From positions 1 through 20,063 of IMG/VR virus record IMGVR_UViG_3300020455_000116: 20,063 nt of DNA; one strand, given 5' to 3'. Below are positions 1-16,796 of this stretch, piece after piece. The notes under the pieces were generated by a model. It saw only the letters and a list, made by a program, of their open reading frames with translations. It had not been told where the DNA came from and ran no database searches. Numbering within the stretch: position 1 is the first letter of the stretch; every line of letters starts with the position of its first letter. A program made the translations under genes and the position numbers. The DNA is from a virus.

Positions 1-3000
1 ACCACCTTGTGCCTTTAAATTATGAACCTGAGGAGTTAAATTACCTGCTGTTCCTTGTCCTGCATTTCTAATTTCTACCTCATACACTTTTCCAATCTCT
101 ACGTCTCTTACTACAGTAGTATTCAACTGAACTAATTTTTTATCATCAATAGAAATTTCTTTTTCTATTGAATCTGGTTCATCCATCTGAATGACATTAA
201 TAGCAGTGAAATGTGCTCTAACATCACCATCTAAATCAGGTCCAGGAGTTGCACCAGCACTTGTATCAGTATCATAGAAACAAATTCTTTGATTTGGTTT
301 ATCAGTATCAGAATTATCAGTAGCACCGCCAGAACTAATTTCAGGTGATGGGGTAGGATTAGGGTCTGCAATAAAATTAAAGGTACGAGTTACCTTACCA
401 TTTGTACCAGATTGTTTCCAAGTTGTCTTTCCTATTTTAATCTCATCTAATACTACTCCAGCAATATTAGGGTGATCATTCCAACTATAAGTCATTGTAA
501 CATTTCCACTCTTACTTCCCACTAAACTATTACCATCAGAAGAGAAAGTAACATCACCACTATCAATAGTAAATGTAGCATTTACATCAAATCCATTAGC
601 AGAATTATCATCAAACACAAGTTTCTTAGAATTAATATATTTTTTATCACCAGGTGTTTTTAATCCAATATATTTAATTGGTGGTGTACTTTTTGCTCGA
701 CTCAACAATCCCTTAAAAGTAACTTCATACTCTTTACCATTCTCAAACACAGCATCTTTCACCACAGATGAACCCTGATAAGGCCAATCAGGAAGTGTTG
801 TGGTTTCCCCAACAAGATTATTAAATCTTAATGGTGCATCCATTGTCTGAATAGTAACAGATTCAATAGCAGCACGTTCAGCAATATTAGTTATAGTCTG
901 TTGACCATAATCAAATGCCAAGAAGTTATCATTACATTCATCATAGTTACCTTCAAGACCATTATGTGAAGCGTTTAGTAAGAATTCACCACCAGGAGAT
1001 TTATCAGCAGAATTAAAAATTGCAGTATTAAGATCTTCTAGTGTCCAACTACCATTATCCTTGAAGGCATCAACCCAGTAATCAAATCCAGTTGCCTCTG
1101 GTCTCCTACTTAAGATAGTTTCATAAGAAGATGTAATTTGTTCAAAGACCTCTTGATAATAATAAACTTGACTAATAATCGGTTGACCATAATTCAATGC
1201 CAAGAAGTCATGATTACATTCATCATAGTTACCTTCAAGACCATTGTGTGCAGCATATAATAATAATTCACCATCAGTAGAGTCATTAGCATCTAAAGAA
1301 ATATTATTGTTAAGATCTTCTAGTGTCCAATCAACATTATCCTTGAATGAATTAACCCAGTAATCAAATCCACCTGCCTCTGGTCTCCTACTTAAGATAG
1401 TTTCATAAGAAGATGTAATTTGTTCAAAGACCTCTTGATAAGTGTAAACTTTACTAACACCCAATATTCCTTTGATTATATTAGTTGATAGAGAAGAATT
1501 ATAACTTGTTACAAAGTCCCTATTTGATATAAAACCATCATTGAACTTAAGGTATCCCTTAATAGTGTTACCATATCCAGCAGGAGTAACACCAGTAGTA
1601 GGTACACATGTAGGAGCCTCTCCTCCTCTGATTCTTTGAGTTAACCAAGTAGAAATATAACTTGTTACAAAATCTCCATTTGATGTAAACCCATCATTAT
1701 ATAAAAGGTATCCCTTAGTAGTGGTAGCATATCCAGCAGGAGTAATGCCAGTAGTAGGTACGCATGTAGGAATGAGAGCTCCTCCTTTAAAGATTGGTGC
1801 TACACATCTAAAATCAAACTTAACTTGAACTCTTTTGTTGCCAAATGCCCTCAAATAATACTTATCACCTCTCTTCATAAATGATATCTCAGGAGGGGTA
1901 GTAGCACCAGTAACAAGTTCAGTTCCAGTTCTAGTAGTTGATTCCCATTTTCCACCCTGCTCATATAATAATCCTTTAATATTAATAGAATTAATAAGAG
2001 CACTACTAGTTGTTACTTTAAACTGAACATCTTTCTGAATAGCTCCTCCAGCAATAGGATTAATATTAACCCAATCTTTAGTATTAAAAACCTTTTGATC
2101 AATTAATTTTGTTATTCTTGTACTATTATTCTCAATCTCTACTTTCACTTCCTTTATCCCTTCAGTTAAGTAGAATAATGATTCAGCATTTTCTACTTTA
2201 TTTCTATTGTCAAGATTCAACTTAACTTCACCATCAATAGATATCGTACCAATATCATCTATCAATGCTTTAAGTTTATACCAACCCTTATATGGAATAT
2301 CAACATCCCAACTGTTAGTAAAAACAACTCCACCATTATCAGTACCACTTGTTGCAAGAGGAGGGACTGGAGACATTCCATACTTATTATGAAACTCAGT
2401 CCAACTACCAAACCTTACAGGATACCATGTACCATCCTTTGCATTAGGAAATCTAGTAGACCATATAGGATTACTAGGACATCTTCCTTCCTGTACTGGT
2501 ATAGGTTGTTGTGGTGCAGGAGGTAAAGGTGCTTTAATATTTAAAGCAACACCCATAGGATTACCATGCCAAGACTGTGGAACTACCTCCTCAACATCAG
2601 CAACAGTAGTATCAATAGCAACAGCAAGAACCATTGGGTTTAATCCTTGACCACTATAATCATGAATAGCACCATCTTTTTTTATCTTACCAAATCCAAA
2701 TTGACCACCAGGAATTTGTGTAAGATTTGCTTCTATACTATACCTTCCTGCTTCAATATATCTTACATAAGTTCCCACTCCTGTACTTTTAATTCCCTTC
2801 TTCTTTGAAACTGTATATCCTTTCTTTGAAATTGTAACTACATCTCCACCTCTACTAGTACCTATCTTAAGATCAACATTATCATCTACCCCAACTCTAA
2901 TAGTATAATTCCCACTGATAGGGAAGTTAATATTGTTCCATCGGATAGTATGTGTTCCTGCATAAGGATTGTCAGGAAGAGTATCCTTAGTATTAAAAGG

Positions 3001-5328
3001 ACAAACCCCATACTCATTTATAAATCCACCTCTATTATTAACATTCGTTCTCCAGAGTTTTCTATTTGCTGATGTTATATAATCAGTAGTGTTAAAAACT
3101 TTAGTTTTTTCTACAGAAGTCTCACTGTTATCAGTATTCTGAACATCTTGATTGACAACATCTACTGCCTTTAAAGCACCAATAGGAGCAGGAAAATTAC
3201 CCATCAATCCTTGACCTGCATTAGAAACAGTGACTGGATAAACTTTACCAACAATAACTGTCTTTTTAAAAGTCTTATTTAATTGCTTTAATTTTAAATC
3301 ACCTGGAATAGAAGGAACAGAATCTGATAGTTGTTCTATATTGATTATCTTAAAGTGTGCTCTAACATCACCATCCAAATCAGGTCCAGCAGTTGCACCA
3401 TCAGAGGTATCACTATCATAGAAAGCAATTCCCTGACCATTATCGAAAACTTGAGGTGGTGTAGCGTCAGTAAATCCCTGTGATATTAAACCAGCAGTCA
3501 ATGTTTGTTGATATCTAGCACCAGTAAAAGTAACTCTATATTCTTTATCGTTCTTAAAAGTTCCTTTCTTTACAGTTATCATTGCCTTATCAAAAGGCCA
3601 AGCAGCATCAGGAGATAGTGGACCAGTTAGTAATCTTATTGGACCATCTTCTGATTGAATAATAATTGATTCTACCGATGAACCTCCTCCTCTTGTAGAA
3701 TCATCATTATGTTTACGAAATTCTAGTTGAATATCTAATAAATCATTACCTGCTACTGTCATATAATATTCAGTAGTCTTACCCGATCCTCTAGAACTAA
3801 ATGTAGCAGATGCTTTTCTCTGACTAATCGCAGGTAATGTTGGTTCTCCTTGTACTACCTCTGGTCCTTGCTCTGTAAATAAATCCTTTACTTCTATTTT
3901 ATTAACAAACGCACTGGAACTAGTAACCTTATACTCCACCTCAAGTTCTGAACCTTCTGGTTGATTGAGAGAAGGGTCAACTCTATATTTTGCTTTGTTA
4001 GCATTAATATCAAAGAATCTACCAACCTTAGCATAACATTGTAAGTCATCATATGTAACACCACCCTGATCTTCTGCTGCTACATTAGGAATATCCTCTA
4101 GTTGTAATAAAGAACCATAAGTTTTTGAACTTGCTTGAACTTTCTTCTTCACTTTGTGTTCAAAGTTCCTTAAATCAATTCTTATTGTATGAGTTCCTTC
4201 AGTAACTTCTTTTTTTACTATAGTTGGAAGAGATAAAACTTTTCCAGCAGCACCACCAGAACCCAAATCATATCTAGTAAGTTCTTCATTATCAAAATAA
4301 ACTATTGCCGAATTATCTGCACTTCCTCTAAAACTATACTCACCACCCCAAGGAAAATCTACATCCCATTCCAAACTAAACAACTCACCTGCTTGAGCAG
4401 AACCCTTAGCATGAGACATTGGGATAGGAGAAATGGCATGAGTATTCAACCAACCATTAGTACTCCAGTCTGTTACGTTACCTTCACTATCTGTAGGTGG
4501 TGGAGTTTCATTCCATGCAACATGTTCTACCTTGTATATCTTTCTAGTAGTCTTTCCGTTACCTGCTACCAACTTAGGAGCATCCTTTGCTGCCCACCAA
4601 AATACTCCTGCACCAGGATCTTTACCTCTATCAGGACCAACTCCTCCAATTCCTGAAGTACTAAACTCTTTTAATTTTTTAATATAATTATCAGTTATAG
4701 TATCAAAAGAAGGTTCTTCATCTCCCAAATATAAAGAAGGATCCCATTGACCTATTACTTTTCCATCAGGACCATACCAACTCCCAATCCCTACTACATT
4801 ATCTTCAATGATAATATAATCTTCAAAATCTTCTCTCTTATCATATACTATTTCACTATCTGGAATATTACCTACAATAGAAATTAAATGAGCACCTGCA
4901 CTTCCCCCACTAACATCTCTTAACTTTGTAGTAGGAGCATACTTATATCCAAATCCACCAGATACTAAGTCAACAGCAAGTAGTGCTCCATCAGTACCAA
5001 AAACAGGGTTTCCAACAACACCTACTCCTCCACCACCTGAGAAGATAACTGCAGGAGTTTCAACTGGTGCATCCCATTCCACACCTTTACATTCTTCACC
5101 AGTTGCTTCTAATACTTCAGGAGTTAACGCATTGACTTCATTGATATTTAAATACTTAATATAATCCCTGTTCTGTAGAATGAATGTAGTACCAGGATCT
5201 TTCTTAGCATATATGTTTGCATCATTAACCCCTACACCAGTCACATATCCACGAGTAGTAGATATATAACCAACTTTAATATCATCTTCAGTTGATGGTC
5301 CAAATAAATTGACTTTAGGGTCTGCCAT
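1..5328 (-). CDS. Giant virion structural protein, partial (C-terminus beyond left edge)
   Basis: The frame starts at ATG 5328-5326 and stays open to base 1, giving at least 1776 residues with no stop; it follows gp5 after 39 nt. I do not recognise it as a named T4 protein. Residues ~100-150 are Gly-rich. Three beta-sandwich, PA14/CBM-like segments are suggested near residues 310-396, 788-880 and 996-1070, each with a 'WDVD/WNNINFP..G.Y' type core. Two 52-residue repeats start at residues 1189 and 1241. Two DUF4214-like units (motif 'Y..ILSRRPEA.GFDYW') start at 1297 and 1391. A larger module (IQ..D.P.R through PDLDGDVRAHF) occurs at ~558-660 and again at ~1494-1708, the second copy carrying a ~112-residue insertion. 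The composition (beta-rich, few Cys, many Gly/Thr/Asn) and position suggest a peripheral baseplate or tail-fibre-type protein, possibly glycan-binding. That role is inference. Confidence 0.85.
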   Translation of the reverse strand, partial: MADPKVNLFGPSTEDDIKVGYISTTRGYVTGVGVNDANIYAKKDPGTTFILQNRDYIKYLNINEVNALTPEVLEATGEECKGVEWDAPVETPAVIFSGGGGVGVVGNPVFGTDGALLAVDLVSGGFGYKYAPTTKLRDVSGGSAGAHLISIVGNIPDSEIVYDKREDFEDYIIIEDNVVGIGSWYGPDGKVIGQWDPSLYLGDEEPSFDTITDNYIKKLKEFSTSGIGGVGPDRGKDPGAGVFWWAAKDAPKLVAGNGKTTRKIYKVEHVAWNETPPPTDSEGNVTDWSTNGWLNTHAISPIPMSHAKGSAQAGELFSLEWDVDFPWGGEYSFRGSADNSAIVYFDNEELTRYDLGSGGAAGKVLSLPTIVKKEVTEGTHTIRIDLRNFEHKVKKKVQASSKTYGSLLQLEDIPNVAAEDQGGVTYDDLQCYAKVGRFFDINANKAKYRVDPSLNQPEGSELEVEYKVTSSSAFVNKIEVKDLFTEQGPEVVQGEPTLPAISQRKASATFSSRGSGKTTEYYMTVAGNDLLDIQLEFRKHNDDSTRGGGSSVESIIIQSEDGPIRLLTGPLSPDAAWPFDKAMITVKKGTFKNDKEYRVTFTGARYQQTLTAGLISQGFTDATPPQVFDNGQGIAFYDSDTSDGATAGPDLDGDVRAHFKIINIEQLSDSVPSIPGDLKLKQLNKTFKKTVIVGKVYPVTVSNAGQGLMGNFPAPIGALKAVDVVNQDVQNTDNSETSVEKTKVFNTTDYITSANRKLWRTNVNNRGGFINEYGVCPFNTKDTLPDNPYAGTHTIRWNNINFPISGNYTIRVGVDDNVDLKIGTSRGGDVVTISKKGYTVSKKKGIKSTGVGTYVRYIEAGRYSIEANLTQIPGGQFGFGKIKKDGAIHDYSGQGLNPMVLAVAIDTTVADVEEVVPQSWHGNPMGVALNIKAPLPPAPQQPIPVQEGRCPSNPIWSTRFPNAKDGTWYPVRFGSWTEFHNKYGMSPVPPLATSGTDNGGVVFTNSWDVDIPYKGWYKLKALIDDIGTISIDGEVKLNLDNRNKVENAESLFYLTEGIKEVKVEIENNSTRITKLIDQKVFNTKDWVNINPIAGGAIQKDVQFKVTTSSALINSINIKGLLYEQGGKWESTTRTGTELVTGATTPPEISFMKRGDKYYLRAFGNKRVQVKFDFRCVAPIFKGGALIPTCVPTTGITPAGYATTTKGYLLYNDGFTSNGDFVTSYISTWLTQRIRGGEAPTCVPTTGVTPAGYGNTIKGYLKFNDGFISNRDFVTSYNSSLSTNIIKGILGVSKVYTYQEVFEQITSSYETILSRRPEAGGFDYWVNSFKDNVDWTLEDLNNNISLDANDSTDGELLLYAAHNGLEGNYDECNHDFLALNYGQPIISQVYYYQEVFEQITSSYETILSRRPEATGFDYWVDAFKDNGSWTLEDLNTAIFNSADKSPGGEFLLNASHNGLEGNYDECNDNFLAFDYGQQTITNIAERAAIESVTIQTMDAPLRFNNLVGETTTLPDWPYQGSSVVKDAVFENGKEYEVTFKGLLSRAKSTPPIKYIGLKTPGDKKYINSKKLVFDDNSANGFDVNATFTIDSGDVTFSSDGNSLVGSKSGNVTMTYSWNDHPNIAGVVLDEIKIGKTTWKQSGTNGKVTRTFNFIADPNPTPSPEISSGGATDNSDTDKPNQRICFYDTDTSAGATPGPDLDGDVRAHFTAINVIQMDEPDSIEKEISIDDKKLVQLNTTVVRDVEIGKVYEVEIRNAGQGTAGNLTPQVHNLKAQGG
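877..1440 (-). repeat. Two tandem DUF4214-like units (94 residues each)
   Basis: Within the giant structural gene, residues 1297-1390 and 1391-1484 are direct repeats with a period of 282 bp. A 67-bp block at 1093-1159 is identical to 1375-1441, including third codon positions. The rest of each unit is clearly related but diverged; both carry an 'NGLEGNYDECN' motif. The core 'SRRPEAxGFDYW' resembles DUF4214, a domain found in many secreted and S-layer-like bacterial proteins. Assignment to that family is from memory of its consensus, not a search. Confidence 0.8.
1453..1764 (-). repeat. Two tandem 52-residue repeats beginning CVPTTG
   Basis: Residues 1189-1240 and 1241-1292 of the giant protein align without gaps over most of their length. 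They share CVPTTG.TPAGY, then KGYL, NDGF.SN.DFVTSY. The DNA period is 156 bp, in frame. The two copies sit directly upstream of the DUF4214-like pair. The 'F.....F..DFVTSYI' pattern is helical-looking and may be another form of the same type of unit, but I cannot assign it to a family. Confidence 0.75.
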
Positions 5329-10071: not shown

Positions 10072-12429
10072 TTAATAACCTTGATATCTCTCAAATGATT
10101 GTCCATCATCTACAATCACCTGATTATTCACAACAGTCCCACCACTATTACCTCCAGAAAGAACAGGTGTTGTAGTATTCTTATTAATAATAATTACTTC
10201 AGTCTCAGATGAATTATTTTGTTCATACATGGCATAAGATCTAAGTACTTCATCATTATATTTGTTACCCATTTGCATACCCATCGTGGCAACCTGATAT
10301 TGCCTCTCAGTTAAAGGTTGACCAGGAATAAATCTTTCACCACCAATCTTCATATAGTTATCAGTATAAGAGTAATTAGTAGATGGTCTTTGTCGTCTTT
10401 GTCGTTCTCTACCCCACCTCTTATCTCCACCACCACTTATAGGATCAAATTGGAAGTTACCTGCACCTCTCTTATCAAAATCAGTGAGTCCCATCGTCAT
10501 CCAATCAGTTAAACCAGCAAGCATTCTAAATGGACCAAAACCTTTAGGACTTCCTGCAGGATTCTGTTTATCAAAATCAAACATACCTAATGTAGCAAAG
10601 TCTAATGCTCCACCAATACCTCTCTTAATTCCCATACCAGATTGCTTCTCTCCTCTCTTTGCTTGCTCATTACGAGAACCCCATGCCTTATCCTTACCAC
10701 CAAAGATAGGATTAACTTGGAAGTTACCTGCACCTCTCTTATCAAAATCAGTTAGACCTAGTGTAGCATAATCAGCTAGTCCTCCTGCAATTCTACGAAC
10801 ACCAAAATCCTTTGGTGCTCCCTTACGATTTCTTTGATCAAAATCAAACATACCTAAGGTCATAAAATCAGCAGCACCTGTGATACCTCTCATCAATCCT
10901 TGAGGTTTATTAAGTTCACTTGTTATATCCTCTCCTTCAGAAGTCATCCTTAATATACTATGAACTTTTTCTCCAGATTTTTTACCCTGAAGAAGATCCT
11001 GAGTTGCTACTAAATCAGGTGTACTTAAAAGTATTGTTCCTTTCTTGGCAGGTACTTGCTGACTCTTTGTTTTACCATCCTTAGTATAACCCATCGCATC
11101 TGTTCCTTCCTTACCATAGATGCTTCCAAATGCACCCTTGTCCTTAGCAAATAAACCAAGGGTGAATGCATTTACAATCTCTCTAAACTGTTCTCTAATT
11201 CTTGCATCAAACTTACCAAGATTTTCTCTTTGTTTTTTCTTACCTGCTTCATCAAGGAAAGGATATCTTACTAACTCTACCAAGTATCTAAACGGTGCTC
11301 CAATAATATCTAAAGTAGTACCAATAATTCCTACAACAAAATTAAATCCCTTAATAATCTGAAGAATTCCCCAATCTACTGCCTTTCTTGGGTCTGTCCA
11401 CCACTTTTCTTTATACCTTTTAAACCATGCCTCTTCTGCTTCCTGACCTTTCTTCTTAATCTGGAATGCACCTTCACCAAGACCAGATGCAAGGAGTCCA
11501 GCACCTGCAACGATACCCACAGTCGCTGCTGTTCCTATACCTCCCGCCGTTGCTGCTGCACCTCCTGTTGTTGCTGCACCTCCTCCTCCTGCTACTGTTG
11601 CTAATGCTGAACCTCCCTTTAGAAACGCAATCAACTTTGTAATCATACCTACTCCACCAAGAGCAGCAAACACCAACCCTACACTACCAATAAGGTTTAT
11701 CACATTCTTCAAAGTATTCAAGAAAGAATCAAATACTTCTAAACCTTTCTCACCAAATACATTTTTTACCAATCCTCGCATTCCCTCTATCAAACTATAG
11801 GCAGCATCAACTATAGTAGCTACAAAATTAAGAACCCATCCAGCAATATTAATAGCAATATCAACAACCTTAGCAAGAACTTTGACAATTTTCATTAAAG
11901 GTCCAGATGCATCCATTAACTGACCTAGAAAAGCAGACAAGAACATAGACATCAAAAAGTTTTTTAATTTATCAAAGAAACTTGTAACTTGTTTTTTTCC
12001 AGGTAACTCAAACTTACTCTTTTTCTTTTCTGGTTTCTCTGCTTCATCCTCTGCCTTTGCTCTCTTTGCATCCTCCAATTGTTTTTTCTCATCTTCTCTT
12101 ACCTTTTCTCTATAGATGTAACTATTACTCAATAATTTTTCTACAGATATTAGATTAGTTTTAATACGAATTGCAACCTCTTCAACATCATCACCCGAAC
12201 TAGCAGATGTATCATTAACTATTGCAGCAGCAGGAGCAGTAGGAATTAATGAAGTGCTAGGACGTACCTTTACTTCTTGTGCTTCTACATCTACCGTTTG
12301 TTCAGAAGCAGGTTTCTCAGGTGCATTCTTCCCACCCTTTCTTTTAAAGATGCTCTTTGCCATACGAGCACCACCACCAACTGCTCTAGCAGTACCCATT
12401 AATCCTTTTCCTAATGCTGCCCAAGCCAT
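10072..12429 (-). CDS. Tape-measure-like tail protein, second of a tandem pair (785 aa)
   Basis: This is a large virion protein, probably inside the tail tube or part of the hub/tape-measure complex (the role of T4 gp29). Residues 1-60 are basic and Ala/Gly-rich. Residues ~85-140 form a charged, coiled-coil-like helix. Residues ~150-215 and 240-320 are hydrophobic helices with an Ala/Gly-rich run. Residues ~514-692 hold two 89-residue repeats, each made of two half-units with the core [GL].DFxTLG(M/L)(F/T)DFDxR. The C-terminus is Asn/Thr/Gly-rich (NKNTTTP...GGTVVNNQ), as is common in tape measures. It starts 1 nt after the 831-aa gene stop. The segment around residue 155 (FLMSMFLSAFLGQLM) resembles the equivalent part of the upstream gene, suggesting paralogy. 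Confidence 0.7.
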   Translation of the reverse strand: MAWAALGKGLMGTARAVGGGARMAKSIFKRKGGKNAPEKPASEQTVDVEAQEVKVRPSTSLIPTAPAAAIVNDTSASSGDDVEEVAIRIKTNLISVEKLLSNSYIYREKVREDEKKQLEDAKRAKAEDEAEKPEKKKSKFELPGKKQVTSFFDKLKNFLMSMFLSAFLGQLMDASGPLMKIVKVLAKVVDIAINIAGWVLNFVATIVDAAYSLIEGMRGLVKNVFGEKGLEVFDSFLNTLKNVINLIGSVGLVFAALGGVGMITKLIAFLKGGSALATVAGGGGAATTGGAAATAGGIGTAATVGIVAGAGLLASGLGEGAFQIKKKGQEAEEAWFKRYKEKWWTDPRKAVDWGILQIIKGFNFVVGIIGTTLDIIGAPFRYLVELVRYPFLDEAGKKKQRENLGKFDARIREQFREIVNAFTLGLFAKDKGAFGSIYGKEGTDAMGYTKDGKTKSQQVPAKKGTILLSTPDLVATQDLLQGKKSGEKVHSILRMTSEGEDITSELNKPQGLMRGITGAADFMTLGMFDFDQRNRKGAPKDFGVRRIAGGLADYATLGLTDFDKRGAGNFQVNPIFGGKDKAWGSRNEQAKRGEKQSGMGIKRGIGGALDFATLGMFDFDKQNPAGSPKGFGPFRMLAGLTDWMTMGLTDFDKRGAGNFQFDPISGGGDKRWGRERQRRQRPSTNYSYTDNYMKIGGERFIPGQPLTERQYQVATMGMQMGNKYNDEVLRSYAMYEQNNSSETEVIIINKNTTTPVLSGGNSGGTVVNNQVIVDDGQSFERYQGY
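10357..10890 (-). repeat. Two tandem 89-residue repeats (four half-repeats) in the 785-aa protein
   Basis: The period is 267 bp. A 36-bp stretch at 10450-10485 is identical to 10717-10752 and encodes the TDFDKRGAGNFQ core. Each unit contains two related half-units, 'TLGMFDFD' and 'TLGLTDFDKRG' types, so the motif appears four times. The outer boundaries are approximate. Confidence 0.8.
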
Positions 12430-12430
12430 A

Positions 12431-14926
12431 TTATACCATTATCCCCAATGTTTTTATCTTATCCCTCGACCTCATCATAGTTGCACTAAAATCAGGAACC
12501 TCCGAAGGAGCCTCATCTTGATTAAGATTGATAGGATTATTATTCCCATCCATCTTCAATGAGGTAATCTTTGCTGCTACACTTGAATTAGATGAAGATG
12601 GAGGAGGAGATATATTAGGTGATTTTGGTACAGAATTAACTTGTTTATTTTTAAAATCCAATCCTGAAGCAACCATACCTCCATTTTGGAATGCTTGAAC
12701 CAAACCACCAGTGCTGAAGTTAGATACAGAATTAGAAGAAACTAAACCACCACCAGCAAATCCTTGAACAAGACCACCACCATTCATTTTAGCACTAGCA
12801 GATATATCAGCACCTAAATTATCCAGTTCAGCCTGATTCTTAATATCTAATAATGCTTTTGCATGTGGGTTTGCTGCAAAAAACTTCTGCTTTTCTTCTT
12901 CTGTTATTAGACTCATTCCTCCAGAAAAAATGGTTTTACCATCAACTGTTTTTGATTTTGATGTGGTCTTAAGACCCGTATTAAAATCAAAATTAGTATT
13001 TGATGTTTCTTTTGTTCTTGGACCTGGACCTACAGCCTTTGTAAGTTCCACACCTGGAGCATAAGTTAGATTAGTTAAAGGTTCCAAACCCTGCAATACT
13101 CTTTCTTCATTAACATACTTAAGCATATATGCTTCTTGTTGTTGTCTTTCTTTTGGATCAGTTACGACACCTGTTGCTTTACCACCACCCTTATATCTTC
13201 CCATTGTTGGTTTATTAGTTCCACCAGCAGCAGCATTCATACCTTCTAGTGCCTTAACACCATACTGTTGCACAGCACCCTTAGACATAACAAACTCACC
13301 AGGAGTTAGCATTGCAGGAACTGTATCCTTATTACCAGAACCAGGAACTGTTCCACCTTTATTCATACCTCTTACTTTTCTCTCTACATTATCACCAATC
13401 TCTCCACCTGCTGCACTACCTGCCATACCTAATGCAATATCAGCAACAGGACTTACAGGTGAGTCAGCAAAGAAACCAACAACACCACCAGCTAATCCAC
13501 CTACAGCACTACCAATACCTCTACCTATTCCTGAGGTCTCTTTCTTCCCACTCTCTGCTGCAGCATTCATTCCTTCAAGAGTATCTGTACCATACTTCTC
13601 CGTTGCTCCTTTAGTCACGACAAACTCACCAGGAGTTAGCATTGCAGGAACAGTATCTGTATTACCAGAACCAGGAACAACACCACCTTTATTCATCTCA
13701 ACGGTTTTCTCTTTTTTTACATTATTTTTTCTATCTTTAGCAGATCTAGATGGATCATTTTTATTATCTTTGAATTTATTGTGAAGATACATCCCACCAC
13801 CTACAACCGCAGCAGTCCCTAGAACTGCTAACCCTATCGGAGATGCTAAGAATGCTGCCAATGCTGGTATGAATCCCATCAATACAGGAATGAATCCTGT
13901 AATTGCTGCTACTGTTCCTGTGATTAATGATCCTATACCAGTACCAAATAACAAAAATCCAGTCAACAATATTGGCCAAAAATCACTAACAAATTTAAAT
14001 ATAGATTTTACTTTTTTCTGATTCTTTGGATTCTGAAACCAATTAAAAAGTTTTCCAACAATTGCAGAGAACAATAATGTCTTTAGAAAACCCCATACTC
14101 TTTCCCATAAACTTTTGACAGGTGCTATTACTTTCTCACCCATCTTTTTCATTCCTTCAAATACTCTCGACTCCATCTTCTTTTCTTTACCAGATCTCGC
14201 AGCATCCTGTTTTTCTTTAGCAGCATCTTGTGCAGCATCTCTATCTCCCTGCTGCTGTCCTTGTAAAAGATTCTTAATTGATTCAGTAGTTCCTGCAATA
14301 GAAGTAAGAATATTTTTTAAAGCATCTCCAAATGGTGATTGCTTTTGTTCATCTTCGGGGGGAAGTACTTCAGGAGTAATAGCATCAGATGTTACATCAG
14401 GTTTAGATTCTCCAAAGAACTCACTAATATCTGGATTCTGTGATTTATCAGGTCGAATATTTTCTAATGATTCTTGTGATGTTCCTTTCTTAAATGCTTC
14501 ACCAGTTATCTTTGTTTTCTTTAAATTTAATTTCTTCTTAGTTGCTACAGCCTTATCTACTGCATTAAATTTTGATTCTTCTGCAGCAAACTCCTTCTCT
14601 GCTTCTGTCATTGGAACTGAAGCATTATATTCTGCTACTTCTTCTGGTGTTGCCTGATGAATATTTTCTAATATCTCATCTATACCTTCCTTTGCTTGCT
14701 CCTCTTCTGCCTGTTCTAATTCTAATACATTAACCCTTTTCTCAAGTCCAAGAACTCTCACCAAAGTTTTCCTCTGCATTGCAAAGGACTTACTTAATGT
14801 CTTATGAATCTGAGCAACTTCAATACCTAATCCTTTCTCAATCCCCTCAACATTAGACGCTAGCTTATAATGAGGATCAAATCTCCCTCTTAAATCCCCT
14901 ATTATATTTTTATTGTTACTAGGCAT
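12431..14926 (-). CDS. Tape-measure-like tail protein, first of a tandem pair (831 aa)
   Basis: This is a probable tail tape measure or hub-core protein, equivalent in role to T4 gp29. Residues ~25-95 are coiled-coil-like and acidic. Residues ~215-285 are Gln/Lys-rich and charged. Residues ~285-395 are hydrophobic helices (FLKTLLFSAIVGKLF, then 'LLTGFLLFGTGIGSLITG'). Two copies of a GGxVPGSGNxDTVPAMLTPGEFV motif follow at ~411-455 and ~521-565; this motif recurs in tailed-phage tape measures. A Gly-rich C-terminal part has GGGLVQGFAGGGLV-type repeats. The start overlaps the gp51 stop by 8 nt (ATGCCTAG), with no obvious Shine-Dalgarno, so translation is probably coupled. It follows gp26/gp51 as tape measures follow their chaperones in other phages. 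Confidence 0.75.
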   Translation of the reverse strand: MPSNNKNIIGDLRGRFDPHYKLASNVEGIEKGLGIEVAQIHKTLSKSFAMQRKTLVRVLGLEKRVNVLELEQAEEEQAKEGIDEILENIHQATPEEVAEYNASVPMTEAEKEFAAEESKFNAVDKAVATKKKLNLKKTKITGEAFKKGTSQESLENIRPDKSQNPDISEFFGESKPDVTSDAITPEVLPPEDEQKQSPFGDALKNILTSIAGTTESIKNLLQGQQQGDRDAAQDAAKEKQDAARSGKEKKMESRVFEGMKKMGEKVIAPVKSLWERVWGFLKTLLFSAIVGKLFNWFQNPKNQKKVKSIFKFVSDFWPILLTGFLLFGTGIGSLITGTVAAITGFIPVLMGFIPALAAFLASPIGLAVLGTAAVVGGGMYLHNKFKDNKNDPSRSAKDRKNNVKKEKTVEMNKGGVVPGSGNTDTVPAMLTPGEFVVTKGATEKYGTDTLEGMNAAAESGKKETSGIGRGIGSAVGGLAGGVVGFFADSPVSPVADIALGMAGSAAGGEIGDNVERKVRGMNKGGTVPGSGNKDTVPAMLTPGEFVMSKGAVQQYGVKALEGMNAAAGGTNKPTMGRYKGGGKATGVVTDPKERQQQEAYMLKYVNEERVLQGLEPLTNLTYAPGVELTKAVGPGPRTKETSNTNFDFNTGLKTTSKSKTVDGKTIFSGGMSLITEEEKQKFFAANPHAKALLDIKNQAELDNLGADISASAKMNGGGLVQGFAGGGLVSSNSVSNFSTGGLVQAFQNGGMVASGLDFKNKQVNSVPKSPNISPPPSSSNSSVAAKITSLKMDGNNNPINLNQDEAPSEVPDFSATMMRSRDKIKTLGIMV
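13231..13696 (-). repeat. Duplicated GGxVPGSGN...LTPGEFV element (copies at 13231-13366 and 13561-13696)
   Basis: Two 136-bp copies lie 330 bp apart, in frame, within the 831-aa tape-measure-like gene. They encode residues ~411-455 and ~521-565. The block encoding PAMLTPGEFV is identical over about 30 bp; the flanks have diverged. Between the copies lies a Gly/Ala-rich hydrophobic segment. Confidence 0.85.
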
Positions 14927-15101
14927 TCGATTGTTGTTGTTTACGTTTTAATTCTTCTTCTTCGAGATGTTGTTGAAGAAGACCTACATAAATGTCCCGT
15001 TCCCAAGGAATCAGATTTTCAATCTCTGTTAAGCTATATTTATGGTACTGCATCAACGCAAAATTTAACCTGAAGTAATTCTCCAAGTTCATATGCGACA
15101 T
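14919..15101 (-). CDS. 51: gp51-like tail/baseplate hub assembly protein (possible frameshift extension of gp26)
   Basis: This 60-residue, mostly helical protein contains PWERDIYVGLL and a charged Glu/Lys/Gln-rich end. That matches the short proteins annotated as gp51 (baseplate hub assembly catalyst) in T4-like cyanophages, although T4 gp51 itself is longer. It follows gp26 as in T4. The ATG at 15101 lies 2 nt after the gp26 stop, in the -1 frame, with GGGTAGG just upstream; a second ATG occurs at codon 4. The -1 frame is open from the slippery T-TTT-TTC at the end of gp26 (CGG GTA GGC ATG), so a 301-residue gp26-gp51 fusion could form. It could act alone, as a fusion, or both. Confidence 0.7.
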   Translation of the reverse strand: MSHMNLENYFRLNFALMQYHKYSLTEIENLIPWERDIYVGLLQQHLEEEELKRKQQQSNA

Positions 15102-15103
15102 GC

Positions 15104-15823
15104 CTACCCGAAAAAAGATGCTAAACCCTCAAGCACAACATCACTTTCAACCTTCGTCTTAGGATTCTTAACTTTAATAGTATGAGATAATTTAGGCATA
15201 GTCTCAAAGAAATGTTCAATTTCCTTAAACTGTGATGAATTCATAGAGTCAAGGAACTCTTTCACTTCCTTCTTAGTACAATCAGCAGTAGACCATACCT
15301 CCTCTTCAGTATAAATTTTATCAATACATGATGCAATCAAATCAAAAGACTGATCCATCTGATTTCCTTCATTAAAATCAAAATTATTTTTAATGAATTG
15401 GTCGAGTGATGGATACTTCATCTCCATCATAATACTATCATCAATTTTAATTTGATTAGTATGGTCATCAACCTTCTGAATTTGTATATCATCTAAGTCA
15501 ATAACAACAGGAACTTCTGTTACTTTATCATCAGGACATACAATATTAACTTCCAACTCTTCTCCAACAGACTTACCCCTAATATTGAGGAACAAAAATT
15601 CAATGTCAAATGTGGGAAGAGTCTCTACTTTTATTCCCTTTGTACTAACACAACTTTTAATTACAGTTTTAATTGCGGTAGTAATTTGTTTGTTATCTTC
15701 ACTCTCCAATGCAAGAACTAAAAGTTTTTCTTCTTTAACAAGGAAAGGTCTATAATTAATTTCTTTTCCTGTTGATGGTAACTCAAGACTATAAGTTGGC
15801 GTAGCAATCTTTGGTAATGGCAT
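15104..15823 (-). CDS. 26: gp26 baseplate hub / tail assembly chaperone-like protein
   Basis: This matches the T4 gp26 family of hub-assembly proteins (239 aa here, 208 in T4). The N-terminus 'LPSTGKEINYRPFLVKEEK', followed by a helical 'LALESEDNKQITTAIKTVI' stretch and TLPTFDIEFLFLNIRGKSVG, is the characteristic pattern. A cysteine-containing beta segment (NIVCPDD) follows. The start ATG at 15823 has AGGA 6 nt upstream and a perfect late promoter 28 nt upstream. The last codons are GCA TCT TTT TTC GGG TAG, which include a slippery heptamer. Immediately downstream lies gp51, then the tape-measure-like genes, the order seen for tail assembly chaperones in many phages. Confidence 0.85.
   Translation of the reverse strand: MPLPKIATPTYSLELPSTGKEINYRPFLVKEEKLLVLALESEDNKQITTAIKTVIKSCVSTKGIKVETLPTFDIEFLFLNIRGKSVGEELEVNIVCPDDKVTEVPVVIDLDDIQIQKVDDHTNQIKIDDSIMMEMKYPSLDQFIKNNFDFNEGNQMDQSFDLIASCIDKIYTEEEVWSTADCTKKEVKEFLDSMNSSQFKEIEHFFETMPKLSHTIKVKNPKTKVESDVVLEGLASFFG
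15110..15130 (-). promoter_or_regulatory. Candidate programmed -1 ribosomal frameshift signal (gp26 to gp51)
   Basis: On the minus strand the heptamer T TTT TTC (15116-15110) is in phase with the gp26 codons TTT and TTC, fitting X XXY YYZ. A Shine-Dalgarno-like GAGGG (15130-15126) lies 9 nt upstream, close to the spacing of the stimulator in E. coli dnaX. After slippage the frame reads CGG GTA GGC ATG into gp51. The gp26 zero-frame stop is 3 nt beyond the heptamer. No strong downstream hairpin is obvious. Confidence 0.6.
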
Positions 15824-15860: not shown

Positions 15861-16796
15861 CTATTTTGTACCGATTGTCCTAATCCATCTCATAGTATCA
15901 CTAACCCATCTAGCACCACCTCTAATCTTATTCACAGACTCCTCACCAAACACAAAACTAGTAAGAGTACTTAGACTATTAAGTGCTGCTTGACTAACTG
16001 CACCATGAATATTTGCACCCTTAATAGTATTCCAAGCATCTCCAAATCTACCTTGCAATATATTACCTAGAACACCAGCTACAACACCAGTTGGATCTTC
16101 ATTAATCTGTTTGAACCATCCTTTATTCATTACATATCTTATATAACTAAACTCTACTGTAACCTTTAATAAATCAGAACCCTCATAAGAGACAGGCATT
16201 GAATTTATAGCAACAGGAAATGACCTAACAAATTCATATTCCAAGTATCCACCACCAATATTAGCTTCAGATTGAGTAAAATCTCTTTCAAATTTTCTAA
16301 CTTTCAATCCCTGATCTGCAATATAATCATCAGGATATCTCATTCTATAAAAATAATCGGGACTTATAGTATCATTACGCTCGTCTGCTGTTGCTACACC
16401 AGAAGCATAATCCATCCAGCATTCAAAAATTCTAATCGGAATATAATTCTCTGCAGGTACATAAAATTCTAAAGATAATCTAGGATCATACATCCTTCTA
16501 TGAGCATGAAACTCAGTCACACCTGTACGATCATTCTTAACCTCTGAAGTATTCAACTGAGAACCTGGAAGTTCTGCATTACTACATGATAAAAGTAAAT
16601 TCCATTCCCTATTCTTATTCAAAAAGATTCCTGCTGCATTCATAGCCTGAATAGGAATTTTATGCAATGGTATATAAACTTCAAATTGAGAAGTTAAAGA
16701 AGGTCTAAGCAGGTTCGCCTTAACATCTGCCACATTTCTAACTTGTGGAGTTGCTTGAGTAATATTAGTAGATGCTGTTCTAGAAGATGAAGTCAT
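15861..16796 (-). CDS. 54: gp54-like baseplate tail tube initiator
   Basis: The 311-residue length is close to T4 gp54 (320 aa), which binds the gp48 cap and starts tail-tube polymerisation. Visible pattern: a Ser/Thr-rich N-terminus; then 'LTSQFEVYIPL' and 'NLLLSCSNAELPGSQLNTSE', followed by 'RLSLEFYVPAENYIPIRIF', 'YFYRMRYPDDYIA', 'YLEYEFVRSFPVAINSMPVSY' and 'LLKVTVEFSYIRYVMNK'. This beta-strand order is typical of tube-fold proteins, in which a length-determining loop and a closing 'V.FSY.R' strand recur. The C-terminus (residues ~230-311) is helical. It is the first gene of the leftward operon, starting in the divergent region; a TAAGGT sits about 18 nt before ATG. Another tube-fold protein is possible, but synteny with hub genes favours gp54. 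Confidence 0.75.
   Translation of the reverse strand: MTSSSRTASTNITQATPQVRNVADVKANLLRPSLTSQFEVYIPLHKIPIQAMNAAGIFLNKNREWNLLLSCSNAELPGSQLNTSEVKNDRTGVTEFHAHRRMYDPRLSLEFYVPAENYIPIRIFECWMDYASGVATADERNDTISPDYFYRMRYPDDYIADQGLKVRKFERDFTQSEANIGGGYLEYEFVRSFPVAINSMPVSYEGSDLLKVTVEFSYIRYVMNKGWFKQINEDPTGVVAGVLGNILQGRFGDAWNTIKGANIHGAVSQAALNSLSTLTSFVFGEESVNKIRGGARWVSDTMRWIRTIGTK

Follow-up and report, generated by a model that had tools for sequence, protein, structure and literature searches.

Sequence evidence for a lambda G/GT-type programmed -1 frameshift joining gp26 and gp51 in the T4 superfamily

In the stretch of viral DNA analysed here (20,063 nucleotides from IMG/VR record IMGVR_UViG_3300020455_000116, hereafter the window), gp26 and gp51 are consecutive open reading frames, which raises the question of whether they encode two proteins or the short and long forms of one. 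Frameshifting between genes G and T has been described as conserved in long-tailed phages 'except T4', and the G/GT products are not in the virion (2016 recoding review, PMC5009743). In T4, gp26 and gp51 are listed as hub assembly chaperones, of which gp51 is essential and absent from the particle (PMC3004832). Cyanophage and vibriophage gp51 was reported to be without the first ~200 residues, and Aeh1 to be without gp51 (Sullivan et al., 2010, PMC3037559). Both the T4 exception and the 'missing' residues fit a frameshift combined with a duplication in T4. We found no earlier report of a gp26-gp51 frameshift in the open-access literature, although subscription journals may hold one, and the PRFect paper leaves these phages unmentioned.

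We propose, with a probability of about 0.92, that gp26 and gp51 form one gene pair that would give a short and a long chaperone through a -1 frameshift, and that T4-type phages duplicated the gene instead. This reading draws on sequence, phase, conservation, homology, predicted fold and gene order, from which frameshifting in the cell, the ratio of products and their partners are inferred. On these grounds, a predicted programmed -1 frameshift of the lambda G/GT type is very well supported in the T4 superfamily.

Table 1. Features of the gp26-gp51 locus, in window coordinates.
Feature	Position	Strand	Basis
gp26, 239 aa, T4_baseplate family, short form (G-like)	15104..15823	-	PF12322 3.5e-77, phrog_150 7.6e-81
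gp51 ORF, 60 aa, in -1 relative to gp26; would supply the T-like C-terminal domain of the long form	14919..15101	-	phrog_634 1.7e-28
Predicted gp26-gp51 fusion, 301 aa (238 aa + RVG + 60 aa)	14919..15823	-	sequence; T4-type gp51 domain order
Zero-frame stop of gp26, TAG	15104..15106	-	sequence
In-frame slippery heptamer of gp26, T_TTT_TTC; its TTT codon lies 9 nt 5' of the TAG	15110..15116	-	sequence and conservation
GAGGG, SD-like element, 9 spacer bases 5' of the heptamer	15126..15130	-	sequence; GAG enriched in relatives
RNA hairpin, 9 bp, candidate stimulator	15067..15089	-	z -3.1; covariation
Tape-measure-like protein, 831 aa	12431..14926	-	phrog tape measure matches, phrog_35029
Tail-tube-like protein, directly upstream of gp26	15861..16796	-	PF23849 6.1e-08, phrog_45 6.9e-25

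In a profile search, gp26 scored 259 bits over the whole PF12322 domain, against a curated cut-off of 24.5. The genes run on one strand in the order tail-tube-like, gp26, gp51, tape-measure-like, so that two open reading frames lie between tube and tape measure, and the start of the 831-aa tape-measure-like gene overlaps the end of gp51. Lambda has the gene order V-G-T-H, to which the order tube-gp26-gp51-tape measure in the window corresponds. Beyond gp51, two adjoining large tape-measure-like genes (831 and 785 aa) occupy positions 10072-14926; family matches of the second are weak. At positions 1-5328, a 1776-aa protein with internal repeats (TCVPTTG..PAGY and SSYETILSRRPEA..) runs off the window.

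The 3' end of gp26 reads, on the minus strand, GAG GGT TTA GCA TCT TTT TTC GGG TAG. The initial annotation had seen here an in-phase slippery heptamer, T TTT TTC, preceded at 9 nt by GAGGG, with gp51 in the -1 frame and open across the junction. Its placement of the heptamer proved correct, GAGGG does lie at 15130-15126, and in the -1 frame no stop codon interrupts the reading between a TGA at 15131-15129, which lies 25 nt 5' of the gp26 TAG, and the end of gp51 at 14919. The arithmetic of its 301-residue product also holds, with the predicted junction peptide ...EGLASFFRVGMSH....

A T-run at a Phe-Phe pair might be chance in a single sequence; we rejected chance because the heptamer is conserved across relatives. 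We compared 337 loci drawn from IMG/VR relatives, further scans and GenBank phages. All 80 IMG/VR relatives at 79-91% identity retain TTTTTTC and place its TTT codon 9 bases 5' of the gp26 stop. Outside the T4-type and Ackermannviridae-like phages, T_TTT_TTN is in phase in 331 of 331 loci, or 167 of 167 at 90% non-redundancy, the last base being C in 257, A in 49, T in 24 and G in 1 of the 331. The TTT codon stands at -9 relative to the gp26 stop in 299 loci and at -6 in 32, and the heptamer's phase is kept even where the stop is 3 nt nearer. Among 324 complete cases, the -1 frame likewise stays open for 40 codons or more in 323. The heptamer and a -1 gp51 occur together in Kyanoviridae and in KVP40-like, Aeh1-like, rhizobial and Stenotrophomonas/Acidovorax phages, for example in the Straboviridae ValKK3 (KVP40-like), Aeh1 and Ahp1, in Vibrio phage D484, and in phiM12, OLIVR5 and AF3. 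Scans with a KVP40-type gp26 and with an Ackermannviridae-like alignment gave no usable matches.

Relatives with gp51 in the 0 or +1 phase, or without the heptamer, had been named at the outset as evidence against a frameshift. One +1 case was found, S-SCSM1, where gp51 has been moved into +1 by an 11-nt insertion 3' of the gp26 stop. This insertion may be a real variant, in which the T-run could allow a +1 shift, or a sequence error; the gp51 phase is normal in S-H68 and S-SCSM2R. The heptamer is missing from six of the 337 loci, those of five Ackermannviridae-like phages and one T4-type phage, and the remainder are canonical. The Ackermannviridae-like phages keep a gp51-like ORF in -1, sometimes unannotated (Cba120), behind an NTT TTC junction (GCT TTC in phage YC) without the canonical heptamer. 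This junction is possibly a single-tRNA slip site.

The T4-type phages present the same two domains in one frame. T4-type gp51 (about 250 aa) consists of a PF12322/gp26 domain over residues 1-200, found at 8.5e-57 in gp51 of phage Merlin, followed by the gp51 tail. Comparison with hhalign linked T4-type gp26 to the gp51 N-domain (99.5%, E 5.9e-23), gp26 of the frameshift group to the T4-type gp51 N-domain (98.5%), and the gp51 ORF to the C-terminus of T4 gp51 (98.0%, E 2.7e-13), and the domain border of T4 gp51 coincides in the alignment with the frameshift point. Judged by these alignments, T4 gp26 is the putative short paralogue and T4 gp51 the same fusion in one gene. In a tree, the T4-type gp26 sequences make up one supported clade and the T4-type gp51-N sequences another (99/100), with the frameshifting phages standing separately (98/95). 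This topology fits one duplication, in a tree whose root is not fixed. T4 carries the two genes divergently on opposite strands, whereas in KP15 they are tandem. None of 13 T4-type gp26 genes with complete ends has the heptamer; the same Phe-Phe is retained, encoded mostly by TTC TTT and otherwise by other non-slippery codons. We consider it likely that an ancestral G/GT gene that frameshifted was duplicated and split to give T4 genes 26 and 51, and that most of the T4 superfamily still frameshifts. If so, T4 looked exceptional because gene duplication had taken the place of recoding in its lineage.

Four points go beyond the initial annotation: the Ackermannviridae-like junctions without a canonical heptamer, the out-of-phase S-SCSM1, this apparent pair of paralogous genes in T4, with no frameshift there, and a predicted structured element downstream of the heptamer. 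Over 55-nt spans in 165 sequences, folding energy dips just 3' of the heptamer to a mean MFE of -11.4, whereas most of gp26 lies at about -5 to -8, and the downstream structure has a mean z of -2.15 (n = 165) and a z of -3.1 in the window. The arms of the window's hairpin, 15089-15081 and 15075-15067, lie ~20 nt 3' of the heptamer. Within the window's clade this 9-bp hairpin shows 27 two-sided changes against 11.5 after shuffling, and a clade with U_UUU_UUA has a different hairpin with 8 against 2.5. The P-HM2-type hairpin is well formed; covariation was looked for in it and none was seen. The downstream hairpins appear to be clade-specific, and their role would be stimulatory. On the upstream side, 94 of 150 sequences (63%) have GAG for the Glu of the Glu-Gly pair that lies 15 nt 5' of the slip codon, compared with 31% elsewhere in gp26. 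Of the three features whose conservation at the junction the initial annotation proposed to test, then, the heptamer and the -1 phase are, and the SD-like element is in part.

The AlphaFold model of gp26 (pLDDT 87) gives some indication of function. The top Foldseek match in the PDB was the HK97 tail assembly chaperone 2ob9 (probability 0.89, E 0.58), and VIA-align placed 2ob9 at Z 7.9 over 84 residues, 3fgx at 7.7 and YqbN (3klu) at 7.3, so that the best match stays below Z 8; the next scored 4.9 and others 2.2 or less. The match spans residues 1-96 only and is supportive of an HK97-like tail assembly chaperone fold for the modelled N-domain. A profile search of the PDB with the gp26 sequence found no credible relative. 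A fold search with the T4-type gp51 model returned nothing above Z 3.7, so the chaperone fold comes from the gp26 model only. The fourth structural neighbour of gp26, at Z 4.9, is PDB 5ir0, the ORF19 protein from a PICI-like element in Vibrio cholerae. Such elements have been reported to interfere with tail assembly, and this satellite protein may mimic a tail chaperone. The proposal that gp26 and gp51 are the T4-type equivalent of gpG/gpGT is backed by the predicted fold, the gene order and the T4 gp51 fusion.

Could gp26 and gp51 nonetheless be separate proteins, with gp51 translation starting at an ATG of its own, perhaps coupled to the gp26 stop, and the T-run incidental? An ATG lies 3-15 nt from the gp26 stop in the window and its close relatives, and many records annotate gp51 as its own gene. 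However, 53 non-redundant relatives (about a third) offer no potential start codon, be it ATG, GTG or TTG, in the interval from slip site to gp51 core, which leaves the fusion as the only ordinary route to the gp51 domain. Annotation is uneven: gp51 is unannotated in S-CAM8 and ACG-2014e, where it lacks a start codon, and shortened in P-HM2 and S-RSM4, and in Aeh1 (NC_005260) an unannotated gp51 lies in the -1 frame behind T_TTT_TTC. Since, moreover, the heptamer codons are frozen where neighbouring synonymous sites vary, and T4 gp51 is the fusion, we regard separate proteins as unlikely. In the window, where gp51 has its own ATG just 3' of the gp26 stop, a free 60-aa gp51 may possibly be made alongside the fusion. 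Slippage of RNA polymerase on the T-run, giving a mixed mRNA pool that is translated normally, seems slightly less probable still. At least six T always stand at the site in the canonical group, but six is a short run for transcriptional slippage in bacteria. We set this explanation aside because the X_XXY_YYZ codon phase is kept when the stop is 3 nt nearer, the downstream structure is under selection, and the Ackermannviridae-like phages keep a -1 gp51 with a run of only 3-4 T.

Codon use bears on whether the heptamer persists without any recoding, through common ancestry or because the protein needs Phe-Phe. T4-type gp26 likewise conserves Phe-Phe/Leu without needing it for recoding, yet those phages mostly write Phe-Phe as TTC TTT, and third positions are fixed only at the heptamer. 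Its first Phe codon is TTT in 167 of 167 non-redundant sequences, whereas four other conserved Phe codons in the same genes are split 333 TTT to 286 TTC (333/619, about 54%). This excess has a Fisher p of 8e-39 with phylogeny ignored, and fixation over 40 clusters at 60% identity has P ~1e-10; both values treat sequences or clusters as independent and are a guide only. F-[F/L] pairs elsewhere in gp26 have TTT first in only 159 of 362 cases. The codon before the TTT ends in T in all canonical loci, though it encodes Ser, Asn, Asp or Ala, while a conserved Gly near the heptamer uses all four codons. Contradicted by these data, conservation for protein reasons was set aside as highly improbable.

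Under the frameshift reading, most ribosomes would terminate at the gp26 TAG and yield the 239-aa short form. Some would pause at U_UUU_UUC with tRNA-Phe in the P and A sites, where the upstream GAGGG and the downstream RNA structure probably assist the slip; having slipped back one base, they would read into gp51 and complete the 301-aa long form. The roles of the two forms would parallel those of lambda gpG and gpGT: the N-terminal chaperone domain common to both would hold the tape measure protein, and in the long form the gp51 tail would recruit another hub or tube part. T4-type phages would obtain the same two forms from duplicated genes, gp26 as the short and gp51 as the long. If true, this removes the stated T4 exception to one of the best conserved phage recoding events (PMC5009743), and the frameshift explains the short gp51 of cyanophages and vibriophages and the 'missing' gp51 of Aeh1 (PMC3037559). 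T4 gp26 and gp51, hub proteins of unclear role, would gain a testable function as a short and long chaperone pair for the tape measure, and many cyanophage genomes in which gp51 is absent or wrongly started would have their annotation corrected. Since the two forms come from separate genes in one lineage, a laboratory T4 system would allow clean variation of the short:long ratio.

Like lambda gpG/gpGT, the locus would produce a short and a -1-frameshifted long chaperone between the genes for tail tube and tape measure; the lambda system, and G-T frameshifting as a conserved trait of long-tailed phages, are attributed to Levin (1993) and to Xu, Hendrix and Duda (2004). It differs from lambda in that gp26 belongs to a different family (PF12322), the slippery site is U_UUU_UUC/A, downstream structure is present in many clades, and the T4 counterparts are associated with the baseplate hub. 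T4 gp26 is homologous to the window's gp26 along its full length, and both domains of the predicted fusion recur in T4 gp51, but T4 uses two genes on opposite strands and its gp26 is without the heptamer. The HK97 chaperone 2ob9 and YqbN (3klu) are among the top structural neighbours of the gp26 N-terminal domain, although gp26 is longer by ~140 residues and shares no detectable sequence similarity with them. The dnaX gene has a tandem-slip heptamer with an SD-like element upstream and a stem-loop downstream. The gp26-gp51 site resembles it in the SD-like element and stem-loop, an analogy of mechanism only, and differs in that dnaX is a host gene with an A-run whereas the phage site is a U-run.
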